In this document: piece by piece, positions 5,648 through 16,510 of the stretch
Layout: each line of letters begins with the position of its first letter
How positions within the stretch are numbered: the first letter of the stretch is position 1
Position numbers and translations under genes: made by a program
NCBI GenBank assembly: GCA_902778145.1
Contig: CACYWW010000013.1
Coordinates: 1-53,912 of the forward strand
DNA: 53,912 nt
Direction: 5' to 3'
DNA from: an uncultured Ruminococcus sp.
GTDB lineage: Bacteria > Bacillota > Clostridia > Oscillospirales > CAG-272
The notes under the pieces: generated by a model
What the model was told of the DNA's origin: nothing
Seen by the model: the letters and a program-made list of their open reading frames with translations, nothing else
Database searches by the model: none

Positions 5648-5665
5648 GTACGGCGCGCCCCGTAC
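5648..5665. promoter_or_regulatory. Inverted repeat abutting the -35 of the AAA+/transglutaminase operon
   Basis: GTACGG and CCGTAC arms with a 6-nt loop end one base before the -35 at 5666. The position suits a regulator-binding site. No regulator is identified. Confidence 0.45.
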
Positions 5666-5694
5666 TTGACAGAACGTAAATAATATGATATACT
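5666..5694 (+). promoter_or_regulatory. Extended -10 sigma-A promoter of the AAA+/transglutaminase operon
   Basis: Consensus TTGACA (5666-5671), 17-bp spacer ending in TGA, and TATACT (5689-5694). It lies 30 bp before the ATG at 5725, which has a CGGAGAT ribosome site. Confidence 0.85.
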
Positions 5695-5724
5695 ATAATC
5701 AATAAAGCAACGGAGATAAAAACC

Positions 5725-6999
5725 ATGATATATTTATTGACGGGACAGTCACCATCGTTTGAGGCAGAACCCACGTTCTGGCAGAAGATCACGGGGCACA
5801 GAGCGCTTTTCGTGTACCTTGCCGTTCTTCTCGCGTCGCTTATACTTCTCATGCTGCTGCTGATAATCAGAAACGCGAGAGAGGTGAGGACTCGCGAGGC
5901 GGAGAAGAAGCTCGCAAAGGAGAAACGCCGCTTCAGCCGTCTCTGCGAGGCTGACGCGCGGGCGAAAAGCATGCCAAAGGCGCTCCCGGACGACGATATA
6001 GAGCTTTCCTCCCTTTGTGACAGGTTCCGTGATTTCGCCGCCTCCCGCATGGGGCTTTATTACGAGCCGGAGGTCATACGCACGTTCATATCCGCGCTTT
6101 CCGTGAGCAGGCTCGTCATAATGCAGGGCATATCCGGCACCGGAAAGACGTCGCTCGCTTACGCCTTCGGAAAATTCGTCCTGCACGAGGCGACGATCGT
6201 GCCCGTCCAGCCGTCGTGGAAGGACAGGACGGACATGCTCGGCTATTATAATGAATTCACCGGCAGCTTCACCGAGACGGAGCTGCTCGATATGATATAC
6301 GAGGCGAACCGCAGCGACAGGATCTTCACCGCCGTACTCGATGAGATGAACATAGCCCGCGTGGAATATTATTTCGCGGAGTTTCTGTCGGTGCTCGAGC
6401 TCCCGGATCCCGAATCGAGAAAAATAGAGGTCGTTTCCGACACGCGTGACAACGACCCCGAGCTTATAAAAGGCGGCAAGCTCTCCGTGCCCGATAACAT
6501 CTGGTTCATAGGCACCGCCAACAACGATGACTCCACGCTCTCGATCTCCGACAAGGTGTACGACCGCGCGATGGTCATTGAGCTTCAGAGCAGGGCAAAG
6601 CCGTTCACGGCGCCGGACACCGATCCGGTCATACTCTCGGCGCCGCATCTCTTTTCGCTTTTCGATAAGGCGCGGGGCGACTTCAGCATGTCCGACGAGC
6701 TGAGGCGTAAGATAGAGCGCATCGACGCGTATCTCACATCGCGCCTCGGCATAACTTTCGGAAACCGTATAATGACGCAGACGGAGCGCTTCATCCCGGT
6801 GTTCCGCGCGTGCGGCGGCACCGAGGATCAGGCGGCGGATCTCATACTGTCAAAAAAGGTGCTCCGCAAGCTGGAGCTCCAGAACCCCGTATACGTCTCG
6901 GCTGAGGCTGACGGGCTTATATCCGAGCTCAACAACGTGTTCGGCGACGGCGTTATGAGGCACTGCCTGTCATACGTCGGAAAATTCGTAAGGCTTTAA
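5725..6999 (+). CDS. Membrane-tethered McrB-type AAA+ ATPase, copy 1
   Basis: This 424-residue protein has a short N-terminus, one membrane helix at about residues 29-50, a charged linker and a cytoplasmic AAA+ module of the McrB/MoxR group. Walker A is GISGTGKT (135-142), Walker B is VLDEMN (204-209) and sensor 1 is GTANND (263-268). The segment VQPSWKDRTDMLGYYNEF is the usual McrB-family pattern after Walker A. A membrane helix is not normal for McrB restriction subunits. It is the first gene of a five-gene operon, 8 nt from the next, and a close paralog lies at 8567. Inference: half of a hetero-hexameric ring that drives a membrane process rather than DNA restriction. Confidence 0.85.
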   Translation: MIYLLTGQSPSFEAEPTFWQKITGHRALFVYLAVLLASLILLMLLLIIRNAREVRTREAEKKLAKEKRRFSRLCEADARAKSMPKALPDDDIELSSLCDRFRDFAASRMGLYYEPEVIRTFISALSVSRLVIMQGISGTGKTSLAYAFGKFVLHEATIVPVQPSWKDRTDMLGYYNEFTGSFTETELLDMIYEANRSDRIFTAVLDEMNIARVEYYFAEFLSVLELPDPESRKIEVVSDTRDNDPELIKGGKLSVPDNIWFIGTANNDDSTLSISDKVYDRAMVIELQSRAKPFTAPDTDPVILSAPHLFSLFDKARGDFSMSDELRRKIERIDAYLTSRLGITFGNRIMTQTERFIPVFRACGGTEDQAADLILSKKVLRKLELQNPVYVSAEADGLISELNNVFGDGVMRHCLSYVGKFVRL

Positions 7000-7007
7000 G
7001 GTGTGAT

Positions 7008-8570
7008 ATGGCGGACAACGATCTGAAAAGGCGCGCCGCGCTGTACGGTACGCTGAAAAAGGTCTCGGAGACCGTGAAGGGAGACCCTGTGCACGGCGCT
7101 CTGAAGGAGGCTTTCGCGGCGCCCGGCAAAGACGAGTATATGACAGGCGCAAGGAAAAGCGTCGAGGTGGACGAGGAATGGCTCGGACGCTGTGAGAGGG
7201 CTCTTCCTCATTTCGAGAAGGCGATAGAACAGTCGCGCAGTCTGATAAAAAAGGACGGCGAGGTCGTGCGCATAGACCGCGCAAAGCGGCCGTCAAAGGA
7301 TTCCGTCGCTCATCTCGCGCGTCACAGCAATCTGATCAGATCCGTGACGGACGACGGACGTCTTGCCCCGGAGGAGATATACATAACGTCGAACGACGAG
7401 GAGCTCGCCGTGTATGAGAACAGGTTCCTTTACCTCGCGCTCACGCACACGCAGTCCTTCGTGCAGTTGAGATATGATGAGATGTCGCGCGCGGCGGCGG
7501 AATCCGGCGTATCGCTCAGGATATCGCGGACAAGCGAGTCCCGCGGCAAAACGCTTTCTTACGAGCTTTCCGTCAGCGAGACGCTGAACGCCGGCGATAA
7601 CGCCGCGGGACTTCTGCAGCAGCAGACGATGGCGCGCATAAGGAACGTTCTCAACGCCGTTTCCGGATTTCTGCAGTCGTCTCTTATGAAGAGCGTATCG
7701 TCTGCGCCGAAGCTGACGCCGCCGATAGTCAGAACGAATATAATAAAGAACAATGTGGACTTCACCGAGATCTACGAGCTTTACATGTTCCTGTCTTCGT
7801 ATACGGGACAGGGCTATACGGTAAATAACGAGGTCAGGGACGGCAAGGACGTGCCGGCGGAGACGGCGGAGCGTCTTTGCGATATCGCGGCGCTTCAGTT
7901 TTTCGCGGCGTATCAGGGCATCTTCGACGGCTGGAGAGAAAGCGAGTCGTTATACAACGAGGAAGAGGAGGAGCGCCGCAGGACGCTTTTGAAGCGCCTC
8001 CGCCTCGACGTTGAGACGGCAAAGCGCGAATTCATGAACGGCGAGCGCACTAAGGAGGAGTATATCGAGCTTCTGGAGACGCGCAACGCCGCGCTTTCCG
8101 GCGCTTATGAGGATCTCGGCGCCGCCGTATCCGATCTGCGGAAGAAGGAGCGCGAGGATCATCAGACCATCGTCCGCCTGTCCGCGGAGCACGATATGAT
8201 GAAGGACAGGATGAAGGAGACTCAGGCGGCGGCTGAAAGACGGATAAGAGAAAACGCCGTGAACGCCGAGCGCAGAGCCGCCGAGGAAGCGGACGAGCGC
8301 ATACGGAAAAAAGAAGAGGCGCACGAGAAGGAGAGGCAGACGTGGCAGAGCGAGAACGATCTTCTGTCCGCGCGTCTTCGCGCCGAAGGGTTAATCAAAA
8401 GCGGCGGGAACGCCGCCGACGATATAGAGGACAGAGAGGGCTTCATCAGGCTCGAGCGCGAGCACAAGGCGCTCGGCGGATATTTCAAAAAACAGTGGGC
8501 GAAGGCGAAAAAGCGCATAAGAGCCGCGGAATGGAAAAACAGAAAGCGCACGGAGGAGGATGACGGATGA
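7008..8570 (+). CDS. DUF2357-like protein with C-terminal coiled coil
   Basis: A soluble 520-residue protein. The N-terminal 310 residues resemble the DUF2357 proteins that accompany McrB-like ATPases (segment EELAVYENRFLYLAL, then the TNIIKNNVDF region). Residues about 315-515 are a long, highly charged Glu/Lys/Arg/Ala helix that looks like a coiled coil. No PD-(D/E)xK nuclease motif was found where restriction partners would have one. It sits between the two paralogous ATPases and its stop overlaps the next start (ATGA), which suggests coupled translation and a complex with both. The DUF2357 label is from memory of the family pattern. The adaptor role is inference. Confidence 0.7.
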   Translation: MADNDLKRRAALYGTLKKVSETVKGDPVHGALKEAFAAPGKDEYMTGARKSVEVDEEWLGRCERALPHFEKAIEQSRSLIKKDGEVVRIDRAKRPSKDSVAHLARHSNLIRSVTDDGRLAPEEIYITSNDEELAVYENRFLYLALTHTQSFVQLRYDEMSRAAAESGVSLRISRTSESRGKTLSYELSVSETLNAGDNAAGLLQQQTMARIRNVLNAVSGFLQSSLMKSVSSAPKLTPPIVRTNIIKNNVDFTEIYELYMFLSSYTGQGYTVNNEVRDGKDVPAETAERLCDIAALQFFAAYQGIFDGWRESESLYNEEEEERRRTLLKRLRLDVETAKREFMNGERTKEEYIELLETRNAALSGAYEDLGAAVSDLRKKEREDHQTIVRLSAEHDMMKDRMKETQAAAERRIRENAVNAERRAAEEADERIRKKEEAHEKERQTWQSENDLLSARLRAEGLIKSGGNAADDIEDREGFIRLEREHKALGGYFKKQWAKAKKRIRAAEWKNRKRTEEDDG

Positions 8571-9934
8571 AAAAAGCGGTTGTTGTCACGATCCTTCTGT
8601 CAGTCGCCGCCGCGCTTGTGACCGCGTGCGGAGTGCTTTTGTGCATCGGTCTTTCCGAGCACGCGCCGCAGGAGGGCTATGAAGGCTGGAACATGATGTT
8701 CATGATGCCCGAATCGGCCGTATCGATCGCCGCGGTGACGCTCGTGATCACGGATATAGCGTGCATCGTCCTTGCCGTGATGCTTTCCGTTTCTTACGCA
8801 AGAAGCGTCAGGGCTCTGAAAAAGAGCGAGCAGGACAATAAGAAGACGCGCTTTTCGCGTCTTATCGGACTCGATGAGAAATACGCGGGAAAGCGCGGAG
8901 AAGAAAACGCCATGCCGTTCAATGACAGGATCCCGCTGAGAGAATTCTGCGACGGCTTCCGCGGATTTGCCGCTTCGTCGATGGGTCTGTACTACGAGCC
9001 GTCCGTGATAAGAAGCTATATTGCCGGGCTTTCGTGCACGCATCTTATGATACTTCAGGGCATATCCGGCACCGGCAAAACGTCGCTTCCGTTCGCGTTC
9101 GGAAAATACGTCTGCTCGGACGCCGCCGTCGCGCCGGTGCAGCCGGGCTGGAAGGACAGATCCGATCTGCTCGGATATTACAACGAATTCACGGATTCGT
9201 ATACGGAAACGGAGCTGCTTTACAAGCTCTACGAGAGCAATTACACAAACGATATCTGCACCGTCGTGCTCGACGAGATGAATATCGCGCGTGTTGAATA
9301 CTATTTCGCGGAGTTCCTGTCTCTGCTCGAGCTGCCCGAGGGCACCTCGAGACAGATCAGAGTCACCGCGGACAGCCGCCCGTCGGATCCGGCGCTTTTC
9401 GACGGCGGCACGCTTCGTCTGCCCGGAAATATCTGGTTCGTGGGAACGGCGAACAACGACGATTCGACTCTGGCGATATCCGACAAGGTCTACGACAGGG
9501 CGTTCGTCATAAATCTCGACAGCAGGAGCCGTCCGTTCGAAGCGGAGCCGACCCCGCGCTCGCACATATCCGCCGACAGACTGAAGGAGATGTTCCGCGA
9601 GGCAAAGCTGTCACATCCATTGAGCGACGCGATAAGATCCGCGCTTGAAAAGACCGACGCGTATCTTACCGAAAACCTCGGTATAGCGTCCGGCAACCGC
9701 GTTCTGAGGCAGGCGGAGAGCTTTGTGCCCGTGTACGTCGCCTGCGGCGGCACGGAGGAGGAGGCTGCCGATATTCTTATCTGCCGCAAGATGCTCCGCA
9801 AGCTCGAAGGGATCAATCCCGCGCGGTGCCGCGCGGAGGCCGGGGGACTGACCGGCTTCCTTACCGGACTTTTCGGAGAAGGAGCGCTTCCAGAAAGCCT
9901 GGGATATATCGAAAAATACAGGGCGGTCAACTGA
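8567..9934 (+). CDS. Membrane-tethered McrB-type AAA+ ATPase, copy 2
   Basis: A 455-residue paralog of the 5725 product. The N-terminus differs: two hydrophobic helices at about residues 4-27 and 50-75 with a short loop between them. The AAA+ core is closely alike: Walker A GISGTGKT (165-172), Walker B VLDEMN (234-239), sensor 1 GTANNDDST, and VQPGWKDRSDLLGYYNEF. Both copies keep the catalytic residues, so both should hydrolyse nucleotide. The gene overlaps its upstream neighbour by 4 nt and is followed after 1 nt by the next. Two intact paralogs flanking one partner suggest a mixed ring rather than recent duplication debris. Confidence 0.85.
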   Translation: MKKAVVVTILLSVAAALVTACGVLLCIGLSEHAPQEGYEGWNMMFMMPESAVSIAAVTLVITDIACIVLAVMLSVSYARSVRALKKSEQDNKKTRFSRLIGLDEKYAGKRGEENAMPFNDRIPLREFCDGFRGFAASSMGLYYEPSVIRSYIAGLSCTHLMILQGISGTGKTSLPFAFGKYVCSDAAVAPVQPGWKDRSDLLGYYNEFTDSYTETELLYKLYESNYTNDICTVVLDEMNIARVEYYFAEFLSLLELPEGTSRQIRVTADSRPSDPALFDGGTLRLPGNIWFVGTANNDDSTLAISDKVYDRAFVINLDSRSRPFEAEPTPRSHISADRLKEMFREAKLSHPLSDAIRSALEKTDAYLTENLGIASGNRVLRQAESFVPVYVACGGTEEEAADILICRKMLRKLEGINPARCRAEAGGLTGFLTGLFGEGALPESLGYIEKYRAVN

Positions 9935-9935
9935 T

Positions 9936-10481
9936 ATGAAGGATAAAGACATATTTGAAAAAGCAAGGATGCGGACGGTCATCATCCCGATCGCCGGATT
10001 CATAACGGCGGCGGCGACAGTCCTTCTGGTGATATTCTCGGCGGCTTTTTTCGGCGCCTTCAACGTTATGAAGGAGGTGACCGCCACGCGCGCGCCGGAA
10101 TTCGACCCGCCGGAAGAACCCGATATGTCGTTTTACATTCCCGTGGTCGATATGAATCCTTCGGTCTATCTGAAGCTGACCACCGTGGAGTTCAGGACGT
10201 CGAACGGGACCGTCCGCTTCAAGGTGAGGCTGAAAAACGAGACCGACACGAAAGCCCACGTCGACCACGTCAGATGCGTTATGTATAAGGACGGGCAAAG
10301 CATCGTTTCATACGTTCTCGGCAGTGATTTCAACATCGATCCGCATTCCGATATCGTCGTATCGGGAAGCGAAAGGATCGGCGACGCGGACAGCGTGCTT
10401 TTCGACGCCCTCTGGAGAGATCCGGAAGGCAGGGCGGCGAGCGGATATATCGTCGCCGGTAAAAATGAGAGGATAAAATGA
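9936..10481 (+). CDS. Small single-pass membrane protein of the AAA+/transglutaminase operon
   Basis: A 181-residue protein with a basic cytoplasmic N-terminus, one membrane helix at about residues 15-42, and an extracytoplasmic domain of about 135 residues that reads like a beta-sandwich (FRTSNGTVRFKVRLKNETD; SDIVVSGSERIG), similar in style to domains of uncharacterised Firmicutes envelope proteins. No enzyme motif is visible. It begins 1 nt after the preceding stop and overlaps the next gene by 4 nt. Inference: a subunit passing the ATPase signal to the large surface protein, or holding that protein. Confidence 0.75.
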   Translation: MKDKDIFEKARMRTVIIPIAGFITAAATVLLVIFSAAFFGAFNVMKEVTATRAPEFDPPEEPDMSFYIPVVDMNPSVYLKLTTVEFRTSNGTVRFKVRLKNETDTKAHVDHVRCVMYKDGQSIVSYVLGSDFNIDPHSDIVVSGSERIGDADSVLFDALWRDPEGRAASGYIVAGKNERIK

Positions 10482-13400
10482 CGTACGATGAATATGTACT
10501 GAAGGTCAGATCCGATATCTCGAAGCTTCAGAGCGTTCTGAAATGGATAAAAAAGCACCGTTTTAAGATCGCGGCGGCAGTGCTCGCGGTCATTGCGGCG
10601 GTGCTCCTTCTGATGTATTTTTCGGGATCGTTCACCTCAGGGCTGAAGGTCGATAACGTCGTATACGGCGAGCCGGTGAACGCCTCCGCCAAGGCGTTTC
10701 TGAGCGGCGTAGGGATCAGTCACACGGAGAATGACGGCGAGGCGCCCGGACTCCCGTACAGGGCGGGCGGATACACGGTCACGGCAAGAACGGAAAACCC
10801 GTTCGGCACCGTGCGTGAACAGAGCGCGCCGCTCGTTATAGCACGCCGCCCCGTGACGCTTTCTCTCGAACCGTTCTCGGTGACGTACGGGGACAGACCC
10901 GACGTATCCGCGATAATGACCGCGGATGGGCTCGCCGAGGACGACTCGGCCGAGGCTGAGATCGTATATGATGAACTTAAGATCACGGGACAGGCGGAGA
11001 TCGGATCAGTCGTTATCAGAAACGAAAACGGCGAGGACGTCACCGACTGCTATGATATAAAAAAGAACGGCGCGGCGTATCGCGTCAATCTCAGAAACAT
11101 CACGGTCGCGACGGGATCGGCGGAGAAAAGGTACGACGGGACTCCGCTCACGGATCACGGCTTCAGCGTGACATCGGGAAGTCTTGCCGCGGGCGACGAG
11201 CTTGTCGTCGTCACTGAAACGTCCGTACTGATGCCCGGGAAAAAGCTGAACGAGGCTGTGATCACCGTCATGCACGGCGGTGAGGATCGCACGAAATACT
11301 ACTCCGTGACTCAGAGCTTCGGCACGCTCAGCGTTTTACCGATACCCATCAACGTAAAAACCGGCTCCGCCGTCAAGGTTTACGACGGACAGCCGCTGAC
11401 GTGCGGTGAATACGAGCTTGATGACAGTGATCTTTTGCCGGGACACAAGGCGAACGCCGGAGAACTGCCGTCGCGTAAAGCGGCGGGCACCACTGAGAAC
11501 AGGATACCGTTCACCGTGACCGACGCCGAAGGAAACGACGTCACCGCCTGCTATGAGCTGATATGCGACTGCGGCACGCTGACCGTTGAAAAACGCAAGC
11601 TGACATTTGCGTCGGGATCGGATTCCGGCGTGTACGGCAAAGAGATAAAATGCACGGACGCGTGGCTGGTCTCGGGCGAGCCGGCGCCGGGCGAGACGTA
11701 TTTGTTCACGGATTTTGAATCGTTCAGATTTGCGGGAGAGCACGCCAACCATTTCAGGGCGGCGATGCGAGCCGGTGACAACGACACATCTTCAAACTAC
11801 GCCATAACGTATGAAAACGGGACCGTGACGATAACGCCGAAGCGCATGACTGTAAATGTACGCGTCTGGGGCGTTCCCGGAGCGTCGACAAGCTTTATAG
11901 CGACGGTGGAGCCCGACACGACTACCGAATACGGCGACAGCTTTGAGTACCCATGGCAGATACCGCTCAGCGTAGGAAATGAGTCGATCGGACCGTATTT
12001 CGAAAGCAGATTCCGCATATTGAACGAAAACGTCGCCGTGACATACTGCTATGATCTGACGTTCGTTTACGAATACGACGAGGACGAGCTTGACCGCGTC
12101 CGTAAAGAAGCGCCGCCGGTCGTACCGGGCGACGGTCCGGGAACGGATCCCGGCGTCGGACCCGGCACAGACCCCGGAACCGATCCCGGCATCGATCCGG
12201 GCGTCGGCCCGGGAACGGATCCGGGTACAGACCCCGGAACGACCCCCGGAGCGGATGATATTTACGGCCCTTCCGGCATAGGCTCACAGGGGATAAGCGG
12301 CGGGACGTCGGAGAGCACGGACATCCCGTCAGGCCCGCCGTCCGTCGGCTCGGATCCCGTCGGATACGTTTCCTGCGCAAGAGAGGGAGGACTGTATCTG
12401 AGGCTCCGCAGCTACGGGAACTACACGGGCAGCGGATGGACGGAGTCGCCGATATACGACATGGCGTCCGAGATATTCCCGCATCCGCTCGATATGACGT
12501 TCTTTTTGCTCGATAACAACGGCTTCAAAGACGGCGCGGATAACGTCGTCGTGGCATACTATCCGAATGACGGGCTGTATCCCGTTCCGTACTACTCGTT
12601 TTCCGAGAACTATAAGGGCAGGTATATCTACACCGACGTTGCGCTGCCGGATCCCGGTTATCAGAGCGTATACGCGTTCTATCATATCCCTCAGCCGGAT
12701 ATCGGTACGATACTCGGGCTCGGGCGCGACAACTATGACGAGGATTATTACAACTTTGTAACGGAGAATTACCTGTCTCTGCCGGAAACTACGGCTGATG
12801 GCATAAAAGAGATAATCGAAAGAGCGGGGCTCGATCCCATGTCACCGACGATCATCGAGGACGTGGCAGAATACGTCCGCGGAGCGGCGCTTTATAACGG
12901 AAACTTCAAACCGTTTCCGGAAAACGTCGATAAGATCCTGTACTTCCTGAACGAGAGCAAGGAAGGCATCTGCAGCCACTTCGCGTCCGCGGCTGTCGCC
13001 ATATACAGAACGCTGGGCATCCCGGCGAGATACACCGGCGGTTATTACGCCGTGTCCGAGGGCGGCGGCAGTATAAGCTACTATTATGAGGCGAACGCAC
13101 ACGCGTGGGCCGAGGTCTACGTAAAAGGCATAGGCTGGCTGCCGGTCGAGGTCACGTCCTCAAACGTGGCGCCCGGCGGTACCGGTTCGCCGCTTCAGCC
13201 GCCGTCGGCGGAGCTGATATATTATAATCGCGTCAACTTCACCATGGAGCCGAAAACCAAGGTCTTCGACGGTGAAAAGCTGGTCTCGAACGGTCCTGTG
13301 CTTCTACCCGGAAGCAATCTCAGACCGGGACACACGCTCACCGCGGAGTCGAACGGGATCACGTACGCGGGTACTGTACCCGCGAGATCCGTGAGCTTCA

Positions 13401-14524
13401 GGATAACCGACGAGGCCGGAAACGACGTCACGTATATGTACGAAGTGAACGAAAGCGTCACGGGATATCTTACCGTAACGCCGCTCGTTTACGATCTGCC
13501 GCAGAAGACCCTGTACGTCGGTCAGACCGTAAAGCTGCCGGAAACGGACGAGATAACTGACGGGCGCGTCGCCGCGTTCATAGACGCGGACAGGATAGAA
13601 TTCGTCATAGAAGGCAGCGCTTCGCTTGCCGTGAGCGAGGACGGAAAGCTTACCGGTATAATAGCGACCGATATGAGAACACTTGAAAAAAGCTATGACG
13701 TGGGCAATGACGATACAGATGACAAGGCGCACATGGACGGAGGGACTGAGGTCATCGTTCACCTCGGCGTCACGGTGCTGCCGTTTGAAAACGTGCGTAT
13801 CAAGGAGGGTGCCGCGCCCGCAGGCACGTCGGCAGGCACGCTCAAACGCGTCACGGGCGAAAACGGACAGATCTATAACTATATCGCCGTCTCCTCGGCA
13901 AGCGTTTCAAAAGCGTTTGACGGCGCATATCTTACAAGCGATTCTTATACGATAACGGACGGCGCGCTTGACGGCGGTCACACGCTCGTGTTCAAGAGCG
14001 GCGCGTCTCAGCTGTACGTCGGCTCGTGCCGGAACGTATACTCGGAGCTCTGTGTGACGGATGAGAGCGGCGCAAACGTTACGGACCGCTATATCATCGA
14101 TTTCTATCCCGGCACGCTTGAGGTGACCGCGGGAAGCTATACTGACGAGGACAAGATCGCCGAGGTCAGGGTCGACGAGGTGAAGGATCTTGACACTGTC
14201 GTGTGGATGGAGAGGATAACAGATCTTCCGGTCAGATACGTTGACGAGCGCGGAAGCGCGATAGTCAGGATCGAGGACGGCAGGCTGATAGGCATAGACC
14301 CCGGTTTTTCCGTGGTCACCGCGCTGATAGACGCAACAGACCTGAACGGCGACGGGGTGGCGGAGTATGAACCCGCAGTGCGTTCGCTCGGAGTGAGGGT
14401 ATTGCCGAAGGAGCGCTCTGACGGATCCGTCATGTATCTGCTGTTCTTGCTGACGCTCGCAGCGGCTGCCGCGGCTGTGACTTATCTGATCATCACAGCC
14501 TCGAAATACAAAGGAAAACAGTAA
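10478..14524 (+). CDS. Giant bitopic surface protein: MBG/YDG-like repeats and transglutaminase-like domain
   Basis: A 1348-residue protein. A cytoplasmic stub of about 26 residues is followed by a membrane helix (27-50), then several MBG/YDG-like repeats (about 130-460; markers KRYDGTPL and KVYDGQPL), a Pro-Gly-Asp/Thr linker (about 548-592) and a transglutaminase-like domain (about 770-900). Two more MBG-like repeats (KVFDGEKL, KAFDGAYL) alternate with Big2-like segments, then comes a C-terminal membrane helix (about 1317-1340) and a basic tail. Transglutaminase residues are Cys832 (GICSHFA) and His875 (AHAWAEVY). The usual third acid is Glu891 (WLPVEVT) rather than Asp. It is the last gene of the operon. 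The domain could crosslink, cut or bind surface proteins. Confidence 0.85.
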   Translation: MTYDEYVLKVRSDISKLQSVLKWIKKHRFKIAAAVLAVIAAVLLLMYFSGSFTSGLKVDNVVYGEPVNASAKAFLSGVGISHTENDGEAPGLPYRAGGYTVTARTENPFGTVREQSAPLVIARRPVTLSLEPFSVTYGDRPDVSAIMTADGLAEDDSAEAEIVYDELKITGQAEIGSVVIRNENGEDVTDCYDIKKNGAAYRVNLRNITVATGSAEKRYDGTPLTDHGFSVTSGSLAAGDELVVVTETSVLMPGKKLNEAVITVMHGGEDRTKYYSVTQSFGTLSVLPIPINVKTGSAVKVYDGQPLTCGEYELDDSDLLPGHKANAGELPSRKAAGTTENRIPFTVTDAEGNDVTACYELICDCGTLTVEKRKLTFASGSDSGVYGKEIKCTDAWLVSGEPAPGETYLFTDFESFRFAGEHANHFRAAMRAGDNDTSSNYAITYENGTVTITPKRMTVNVRVWGVPGASTSFIATVEPDTTTEYGDSFEYPWQIPLSVGNESIGPYFESRFRILNENVAVTYCYDLTFVYEYDEDELDRVRKEAPPVVPGDGPGTDPGVGPGTDPGTDPGIDPGVGPGTDPGTDPGTTPGADDIYGPSGIGSQGISGGTSESTDIPSGPPSVGSDPVGYVSCAREGGLYLRLRSYGNYTGSGWTESPIYDMASEIFPHPLDMTFFLLDNNGFKDGADNVVVAYYPNDGLYPVPYYSFSENYKGRYIYTDVALPDPGYQSVYAFYHIPQPDIGTILGLGRDNYDEDYYNFVTENYLSLPETTADGIKEIIERAGLDPMSPTIIEDVAEYVRGAALYNGNFKPFPENVDKILYFLNESKEGICSHFASAAVAIYRTLGIPARYTGGYYAVSEGGGSISYYYEANAHAWAEVYVKGIGWLPVEVTSSNVAPGGTGSPLQPPSAELIYYNRVNFTMEPKTKVFDGEKLVSNGPVLLPGSNLRPGHTLTAESNGITYAGTVPARSVSFRITDEAGNDVTYMYEVNESVTGYLTVTPLVYDLPQKTLYVGQTVKLPETDEITDGRVAAFIDADRIEFVIEGSASLAVSEDGKLTGIIATDMRTLEKSYDVGNDDTDDKAHMDGGTEVIVHLGVTVLPFENVRIKEGAAPAGTSAGTLKRVTGENGQIYNYIAVSSASVSKAFDGAYLTSDSYTITDGALDGGHTLVFKSGASQLYVGSCRNVYSELCVTDESGANVTDRYIIDFYPGTLEVTAGSYTDEDKIAEVRVDEVKDLDTVVWMERITDLPVRYVDERGSAIVRIEDGRLIGIDPGFSVVTALIDATDLNGDGVAEYEPAVRSLGVRVLPKERSDGSVMYLLFLLTLAAAAAAVTYLIITASKYKGKQ
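12121..12255 (+). repeat. In-frame tandem repeat coding a PGTDPG-type linker
   Basis: Imperfect units such as CCGGGAACGGATCC and GACCCCGGAACC repeat in frame. They encode a proline-glycine linker that joins the N-terminal repeat region to the transglutaminase half. It is probably variable in length between strains. Confidence 0.8.
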
Positions 14525-14713: not shown

Positions 14714-16510
14714 TCATTTGCTGAGTCTTTGCTTCAGCGCGTCAAGCTCTTCGCGAAGCTCCTTCGGCGTGCTCGGGCCTACGAAATCATAGAATTCTTT
14801 GATGTTTTCTATGTCGTCGAGCCATGACTGACGGTCGATCGAGAGCAGCTCCTCAAGCGTCTTTTCCGATACGTCCGTGCCTTCAAGATTGATGTCCCGG
14901 CTGAACGGAACGTAGCCGATCGGAGTCTCCTTCGCGCCGACCTTGTCTTCACAGCGGGCGAGGATCCACATAAGGACTCTCATGTTCTCACCGAAGCCCG
15001 GCCAGATGAAGTGACCCTGATCGTCGGTACGGAACCAGTTGACGTGGAAGATCTTCGGCGCCCTCGGTATCTTTTTGCCCATCTCGAGCCAGTGAGCCCA
15101 GTATTCGCCCATGTCGTAGCCGACGAACGGACGCATCGCCATCGGGTCGCGGCGTACCACGCCGATAGCGCCGGCCGCGGCGGCTGTCGTTTCCGACGCC
15201 ATTATCGAGCCGACGAACGTGCCGTGCTGCCAGTTGAAGGACTGATATACGAGCGGAGCGGTCTTCGCGCGGCGGCCGCCGAAGATTATCGCGGACAGCG
15301 GCACGCCGTCCGGATTGTCGAACTCGGGCGAGACGCACGGGCAGTTCTTCGCAACGGCGGTGAAGCGGGAGTTCGGATGAGCGCCGGAGGTGTTTATCTT
15401 ATCGTTCTTGTCGTACTTTCTGTAATCCCACGGCTCGCCTTTCCAGTTGATCGCGTTCTTCGGAGGATTGTCGTTGAGACCCTCCCACCATACGGTGTTG
15501 TTGTCAAGGTCGTGACAGACGTTCGTGAAGATCGCGTCGCGCTTCGTGGCGGCAAGGGCGTTCGGGTTGCTGTGCTCGTTCGTACCGGGAGCGACTCCGA
15601 AGAAGCCGTTTTCGGGGTTGACCGCCCAGAGCCTTCCGTCGTGACCGACGCGGAGCCAGGCGATATCGTCGCCCACGCACCAGATCTTATAGCCCTTCTT
15701 CCTGTAGTATTCCGGCGGGATGAGCATTGCGAGGTTCGTTTTGCCGCAGGCGGACGGGAACGCCGCGCCGACGTATCTGATCACGCCGTCGGGAGACTGA
15801 AGTCCGAGTATGAGCATATGCTCCGCCATCCAGCCCTCTTTTCTGCCGAGATAGGAGGCGATGCGAAGAGCGAAGCACTTTTTGCCGAGCAGGACGTTGC
15901 CGCCGTACGCTGAGTTGACGCTCCAGATCGTCTTGTCCTCGGGGAAGTGGCAGATATAGCGGTTATCGGGATCGAGAGTGCCGGTGGCGTGCAGACCCTT
16001 GATGAAGCCTTCGTCAAGGTATTGTCCGACGGCTCTGCCGGCTCTCGTCATTATGAGCATGTTGAGCACGACGTATATCGAATCGGTAAGCTCCACGCCG
16101 TATTTGGCGAATTTTGATCCGAGCTGTCCCATGGCGTACGGTATGATGTACATGGTCTTGCCGGCGTATGAATTCTTATAGAGCTTCGTGAGCCTCGCGT
16201 AGCATTCGACGGGGTCTATCCAGTTGTTTATATTTCCGGCGTCTTCCTTTTTGCGTGTACAGATGAACGTCCTCGACTCAACACGCGCCACGTCGTTCAC
16301 GGCGGTGCGGTGCAGATAGCAGTTCGGAAGAAGCTCTTCGTTCAGCTTTATCATTTCACCGGTCGAGCAGGCGAGCTTTTTCAACTCCTCGGTCTGTTCG
16401 GGATCGCCCGTGATCCAAACGGCTTTCGCGGGGTTCACGAGCGATGCCATCTCTTCTATCCAATCGAGTACGTACTTGTTATCAGTCAGTTGACTGTTTT
16501 CAAACTTCAT
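14714..16510 (-). CDS. pckG: Phosphoenolpyruvate carboxykinase (GTP)
   Basis: A 598-residue GTP-dependent PEP carboxykinase, which interconverts oxaloacetate plus GTP and PEP plus CO2 plus GDP in the cytoplasm. The nucleotide and metal loop FPSACGKTN lies at residues 251-259 with the reactive cysteine of the GTP family. The substrate-loop and hinge motifs (YGGNVLLGKK, FGENMRVLMWI) are in place, and the length is normal. It stands alone behind its own promoter. In anaerobes this enzyme often runs in the oxaloacetate-forming direction during sugar fermentation, but the direction cannot be read from sequence. Confidence 0.97.
   Translation of the reverse strand: MKFENSQLTDNKYVLDWIEEMASLVNPAKAVWITGDPEQTEELKKLACSTGEMIKLNEELLPNCYLHRTAVNDVARVESRTFICTRKKEDAGNINNWIDPVECYARLTKLYKNSYAGKTMYIIPYAMGQLGSKFAKYGVELTDSIYVVLNMLIMTRAGRAVGQYLDEGFIKGLHATGTLDPDNRYICHFPEDKTIWSVNSAYGGNVLLGKKCFALRIASYLGRKEGWMAEHMLILGLQSPDGVIRYVGAAFPSACGKTNLAMLIPPEYYRKKGYKIWCVGDDIAWLRVGHDGRLWAVNPENGFFGVAPGTNEHSNPNALAATKRDAIFTNVCHDLDNNTVWWEGLNDNPPKNAINWKGEPWDYRKYDKNDKINTSGAHPNSRFTAVAKNCPCVSPEFDNPDGVPLSAIIFGGRRAKTAPLVYQSFNWQHGTFVGSIMASETTAAAAGAIGVVRRDPMAMRPFVGYDMGEYWAHWLEMGKKIPRAPKIFHVNWFRTDDQGHFIWPGFGENMRVLMWILARCEDKVGAKETPIGYVPFSRDINLEGTDVSEKTLEELLSIDRQSWLDDIENIKEFYDFVGPSTPKELREELDALKQRLSK

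Follow-up and report, generated by a model that had tools for sequence, protein, structure and literature searches.

Why would a gene for a giant transglutaminase-like surface protein lie in one operon with a pair of restriction-type ATPases? The familiar role of McrB-type motors is to power restriction, and the locus described here suggests that such a defence motor has been put to a second use, in building or controlling the cell surface. The locus was found on contig CACYWW010000013.1 (positions 1 to 53,912, forward strand) of assembly GCA_902778145.1, from an uncultured Ruminococcus sp.; this stretch of 53,912 nucleotides is called the window below. Its source genome is a 2.4-Mb assembly of 84 contigs, 88% complete. 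Five intact open reading frames, here named A to E, are tightly packed on the plus strand between positions 5725 and 14524, with gaps of +8, −4, +1 and −4 nt. The reading that we favour, to which we give an even chance, is that they encode a nuclease-less, membrane-anchored machine of the McrBC type, in which a ring made of A and C and driven via B acts on the surface protein E. The features of the locus are as follows.

5666-5694, plus strand: promoter-like sequence TTGACA-17-TATACT with a TG-extended −10 (11/12 matches; consensus match only)
5725-6999, plus strand: A, McrB-like AAA+ ATPase (424 aa)
7008-8570, plus strand: B, McrC-like (DUF2357-type) protein (520 aa)
8567-9934, plus strand: C, second McrB-like ATPase (455 aa)
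9936-10481, plus strand: D, protein with one transmembrane (TM) helix and a beta-sandwich (181 aa)
10478-14524, plus strand: E, giant bitopic protein with MBG/YDG-like repeats (1348 aa)
12854-13150, plus strand: transglutaminase-like core of E (C832, H875 and E891, the last at the usual Asp place)

Conservation and linkage of the five genes

The promoter-like site stops 30 nt upstream of A and has the top score in the stretch, where 10 such sites were observed against a mean of 4.7 after shuffling. With these gaps and this strong site, the five-gene operon under one promoter that a preliminary description of the window had put forward is confirmed. A contig scan with A returned 264 relatives, the best 80 of which, in 66 loci, were kept, a sample that leans to near kin. 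Sixteen of the 66 loci are of the window type, and 15 of these 16 hold A-B-C-D-E in this order on one strand, which bears out the joint conservation that the same description had named as a test; in the sixteenth (L018), the contig ends after B. In three window-type loci (L004, L009 and L010) the contig stops within E, and the 15 include near-duplicates (L004/L005, L011/L012 and L014/L015). Identity of the five window proteins to their counterparts in L005, a locus from a metagenome-assembled genome (MAG), is 37-73%, and this divergence, taken with the order kept in 15 loci, indicates that the set is not due to chance. An E-like gene directly follows the last ATPase gene, or D, in 51/66 loci; the same holds (after D in the window type) for 44 of the 48 loci with the arrangement A-B-A'. 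Two of the four misses end at a contig edge; in L040, inspection of the sequence shows an E-like protein that scored under the search threshold, and the fourth, L065, may or may not have one.

We observed a similar linkage across whole genomes. Among 146 genomes of the family, A is present in 33, B in 32 and both in 31, with 34/35 B matches adjoining A and 39/41 A matches adjoining B; among 245 genomes of the order, the corresponding numbers are 24, 23 and 23, with 23/23 B matches adjoining A and 26/28 A matches adjoining B. Three rows that are second pieces of an already listed B gene were omitted from these adjacency counts, and the family and order matches cover both window-like and SipW-like types (see below). 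Among 398 genomes of the phylum (completeness of at least 85%, the window's own included), A occurs in 2 only, one of them the window's own, and the same two hold B. The module is patchy in distribution with a tightly linked core, and the gene set is conserved in gut and rumen bacteria.

ATPases A and C

Walker A, Walker B and sensor-1 motifs are present in both A and C (GISGTGKTS, LDEMNI and NNDD in A). C is a paralogue of A (54% identical), and a query with A matches only these two in their own genome at E 0.001. TM helices of all five proteins were called by hydropathy only, which gives a single helix in A (residues 30-48), followed by a charged stretch, and two helices in C (9-27 and 43-61). 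Family models recognise A only weakly (Pfam AAA_5, 0.0068; NCBIfam McrB, 5.7e-5, below that model's cut-off). A profile of 27 relatives run against all solved structures at E 0.01 returned only E. coli McrB (1.4e-6), and the earlier identification of A and C as McrB-like ATPases with membrane helices stands.

ATPase cores were taken from 136 of 137 candidates, 122 of them differing; they were excised by Walker A, so that its presence among them is no evidence. Sensor-1 reads NNDD in 135 of the cores and NNDE in one. NNDD fits a pattern of NxD followed by D/E and also fits NxxD; it aligns to McrB without gaps, and the NNDE core favours NxD over NxxD. Judged by these motifs, the ATPases fit the NxD branch of McrB in Bell et al. 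2024. In an ATPase tree (quick search, midpoint root, 136 rows), A and C of the window type form two old lineages, and within-locus pairs are frequent in the wider type of relatives.

Protein B

DUF2357 is the N-terminal domain of McrC and, according to Bell et al. 2024 (PMC11090510), the one through which McrC stimulates McrB. PF09823 (DUF2357) is matched by 19 of 37 aligned B members (best 8e-8); the window B is related to the B of L041, a locus of the wider type (1e-63), which itself matches DUF2357 at 2.2e-7. B has no TM helix by hydropathy. Its AlphaFold2 model, built from 37 sequences (mean predicted local distance difference test score (pLDDT) of 84.5, predicted template modelling score of 0.52), is folded to about residue 305, and long helices at 309-519, reaching the C terminus, stand at the place of the McrC nuclease. 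No nuclease family was found among the Pfam matches of the 37 B members, of the operon proteins or of the seven neighbouring proteins scanned; within this scope, the nearby nuclease that the preliminary description had named as a refuting find did not turn up. B is therefore best described, as had been proposed, as a predicted DUF2357-type domain with long helices, in which a nuclease was not detected.

Proteins D and E

D has one TM helix (15-33). Its model (13 sequences, mean pLDDT of 81.4) combines this membrane helix with a seven-strand beta-sandwich that is probably extracytoplasmic and that, in a structure comparison, gave generic beta-sandwich matches only. E has a TM helix near each end (31-49 and 1321-1339), four YDG-type repeats detected by a simple pattern search, and a match to Transglut_core (Pfam, 5.9e-19). 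The motifs GICSHF, HAWAE and PVEVT at 830, 875 and 889 supply a core triad of Cys832, His875 and Glu891. In 52 aligned transglutaminase-like cores of relatives, Cys is found in 49 and His in all 52, with Glu as the third residue in 41 cores and Asp in the other 11. One surface protein of a relative (L057:14523-19799) holds at least five transglutaminase-like cores, two of them with Ser instead of Cys.

Wider relatives and twin ATPases

Wider relatives, with a pseudo-ATPase (G), A, B, A' and giant surface proteins, occur in Clostridia and in Anaeroplasma/Haloplasma MAGs. G is carried by 38 of the 50 non-window-type loci, the fullest order being G-A-B-A'-giant-giant. In L041, G (L041:6619-9969) consists of GH3 domains (Pfam; the C-terminal one at 5.7e-33), then two TM helices and a C-terminal AAA-like region; an N-terminal hydrophobic stretch was not seen in it, and used as a query it matches window A at 4.6e-9 across the AAA-like region. 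The Walker A pattern G-x4-G-K-[ST] is found nowhere in 37 G rows from 36 loci; one of these rows, at 2025 in L026, is simply a GH3 of the ordinary kind. The Pfam test for GH3 covered L041 only, and several rows are too short to include that part. When the G of L041 is searched against the window's genome, itself 88% complete, the matches are A, C and two other GH3 genes, and no further AAA-like partner appears.

For A and A', 51 pairs were listed and 48 remained after L070, L071 and L073, which repeat L003, L006 and L059, were dropped. DNA identity reaches at least 98% over about 1.1 kb in 17 of these 48 distinct pairs, all types considered (L028, L032, L033, L035-L041, L044, L045, L053, L056, L058, L059 and L061). 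The 17 pairs belong to the wider type; they flank B and are 98-100% identical, their N-terminal membrane parts differ, and the identity ends no more than 3 bases past the stop codon in 14 of them. The twins in these 17 loci point to strong concerted evolution, and such likeness is expected if both copies have to work in the same ring and with the same activator.

Two other arrangements were seen among the relatives. Contigs of L022, L054, L068 and L063 carry G and a single ATPase, with no B found, a layout to be expected from loop-out between repeats or from a skip by the assembler. At L019:7733-11080, the ATPase adjoining B is part of a fusion protein that also has a long repeat region rich in Pro and Thr and a membrane helix.

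SipW-linked loci

CoCoPALM is a group of McrB and McrC homologues with signal peptidases, named in one paragraph of Bell et al. 2024 (eLife, PMC11090510) and deferred there. Among our relatives, 13 extended loci from the same family have one membrane ATPase and B beside SipW-like signal peptidase genes (13/13). Four of the signal peptidase genes were compared with NCBIfam: each matches NF046067 (SipW) under its strict cut-off (best 3.1e-30), and three also pass TIGR02228 (signal peptidase I). A rough pattern finds AWFT-like signal regions in 10/13 of the loci. These SipW-linked loci fit CoCoPALM. None of the 16 window-type loci, some of which lie on short contigs, has a signal peptidase match, and among the 66 loci such a match was obtained in the mixed locus L016 only. 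In the ATPase tree, the window type and the SipW type are separate groups placed side by side (support 84). The window's kind is thus a group separate from CoCoPALM-like loci, with other cargo, and the SipW link is a second tie of these ATPases to surface-protein export.

The ATPase at L016:1667-2953, which lies between signal peptidase-like genes, looks mixed by eye, with a window-like front and a SipW-like back, as recombination or misassembly could produce. The B of this locus has a weak match to the PADLOC model PDC-S61 (0.0033).

A proposed membrane-anchored motor for a surface protein

In the machine that we favour, A and C would be tethered by their N-terminal membrane helices with the ATPase domains in the cytoplasm; their most likely assembly would be a single mixed ring. 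B would take the role of McrC: its DUF2357-type domain would bind and stimulate the ring, with the long helices standing in for the nuclease as an output arm. The work of the ring would be spent on E (and D), in insertion, folding, assembly or switching on. Such an action of the ring on E would resemble the service that MoxR-DUF58 pairs are believed to give to their transglutaminase partners. While the sequences, their order and conservation, the motifs and the fold class are direct observations, we infer the make-up of the ring, the roles of B as activator and E as client, and the direction of action. The preliminary description had proposed a restriction-like motor re-used to remodel or load a cell-surface protein; this interpretation is partly supported, in that the identification of the ATPases and B, the conservation and the parallel with MoxR operons hold, whereas E may or may not be what the motor remodels or loads.

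Several points weigh against a ring that acts on E. A shared gene neighbourhood indicates a shared task and does not make E the client, and hydropathy is the sole basis of the predicted topology of A to E. The window B has no DUF2357 match in Pfam, and McrC is absent from the Foldseek/VIA listing for the B model, although for a long helical model such an absence says little. The core of E has Glu rather than Asp at the third place of the triad, as do 41 of the 52 aligned cores of relatives, which leaves transglutaminase-core activity unsure. Window-type A/C pairs, the window included, share 69-75% DNA identity in their best-matching stretches; they are not homogenised, and the argument for a mixed ring comes from the relatives. 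Finally, the PADLOC candidate PDC-M26A is matched by both A (7.7e-46) and C (7.1e-43), which keeps defence in play.

The alternative that survives best, which we nevertheless regard as unlikely, is an envelope-level anti-phage or conflict system. Infection would be sensed by the McrB-type ring, and E would act as the effector, a transglutaminase-like or possibly protease-like enzyme tethered at the surface. The match to PDC-M26A extends to the ATPases of L041, but its best stretch spans about 120 of 724 model positions, inside the AAA core, and no PADLOC model is matched by B, D or E of the window (at E 1) or, in L041 (at 0.1), by G, B or the first of its surface proteins. A defensive ancestry of McrB and McrC, as presented by Bell et al. 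2024 (PMC11090510), and a patchy spread, with A in 33/146 family and 2/398 phylum genomes, both speak for defence; the lack of a detected nuclease speaks against it. The genomic setting also argues against it, since four of the seven neighbouring proteins scanned match GH106, metallo-beta-lactamase (MBL)-fold, MatE and M42 peptidase families and the others are matchless, with no defence-island mark in the part of the window covered by this Pfam scan. A phosphoenolpyruvate carboxykinase gene, named by eye, lies downstream at 14714-16510.

We consider it quite improbable that the system is instead a relay, in which E (and in relatives also the pseudo-ATPase G, with its GH3-like part) senses the outside or the envelope and the ATPases and B pass the signal inward, the motor being no loader. 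The bitopic nature of E, the AAA-like domain of G relatives without Walker A, joined to GH3 in L041, and the long helices of B, with no known output domain, would all suit a relay, but no conserved member resembles a regulator or kinase, no further search having been aimed at these. A chaperone operon of the ordinary MoxR type, mistaken here for a McrB-type one, would have the same plan of AAA+ ATPase, partner and transglutaminase, yet this is very hard to believe, as A and C have no AAA_3 match at E 1 when a MoxR-like protein of the same genome reaches 3.2e-56, the partner is of the DUF2357 and not the DUF58 type, and among solved structures the ATPase profile matches McrB alone.

If the nuclease-less McrBC-type machine is real, a DNA-defence motor has been turned to envelope work in parallel to MoxR, and the compact five-gene set makes this re-use testable. 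We hold it to be slightly short of an even chance that these loci form a distinct class of envelope machine, namely a McrB/McrC motor minus the nuclease and plus membrane anchors, which would be an ATPase module of surface transglutaminase proteins independent of MoxR, with paired (in relatives third, dead) ATPase subunits that gene conversion has kept alike in some lineages. The wider type, with its dead ATPase subunit and homogenised twins, would be useful for questions on the evolution of hetero-ring AAA+ proteins.

Comparison with known systems

The window set resembles McrBC type IV restriction systems in its McrB-type AAA+ core, its DUF2357-type partner and the neighbouring position of their genes, but it has membrane helices, and neither a PD-(D/E)xK nuclease nor a DNA-binding domain was detected in it. 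With CoCoNuTs, as described in the main text of Bell et al. 2024 (PMC11090510), it shares the NxD branch, long coiled coils and a McrC homologue that is often without an active nuclease; CoCoNuTs are reported there to retain HEPN or other nucleases, whereas the Pfam matches of the window set include none. Transglutaminase and surface go unmentioned in that main text.

The closest described system is CoCoPALM, which in the same source also combines a McrB-like NTPase with a membrane helix, a coiled-coil McrC homologue and a tie to the cell surface, and whose NxD motif followed by D/E is also seen in the ATPase cores collected here (NNDD/NNDE). The CoCoPALM ATPase is fused to an FtsB-like TM helix with a coiled coil; the TM helix of A and the charged stretch after it may or may not correspond to these. 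CoCoPALM comes with signal peptidases, whereas loci of the window's kind encode a pair of ATPases, D and a giant protein of the transglutaminase/MBG sort. The initial statement that no description of such a set was known must accordingly be narrowed, CoCoPALM having already been named. A transglutaminase-linked McrB/DUF2357 set was not found described in the literature searched, which did not extend to the supplements of Bell et al., where such a set may be listed.

The parallel with MoxR-DUF58-transglutaminase operons, drawn in the preliminary description, is a good one. The bifidobacterial PFNA cluster pkb2-fn3-aaa-atp-duf58-tgm, as outlined in PMC8430577, brings an FN3 surface protein and a transglutaminase together with MoxR and DUF58, so that an AAA+ ATPase, its partner, a membrane transglutaminase and a repeat-rich surface protein are common to both plans. 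The window's own genome carries a classical operon of this kind on contig 30 (L120:4563-9578), with a MoxR-like protein (AAA_3, 3.2e-56), a DUF58 protein (2.7e-5) and a 934-aa transglutaminase-like protein whose core is 42% identical to that of E over 74 aa. The plan of the window operon therefore has a known parallel, in the same genome and in bifidobacteria, and is carried out with other motor parts, two McrB-type ATPases and a protein of the DUF2357 type standing in place of MoxR and DUF58.

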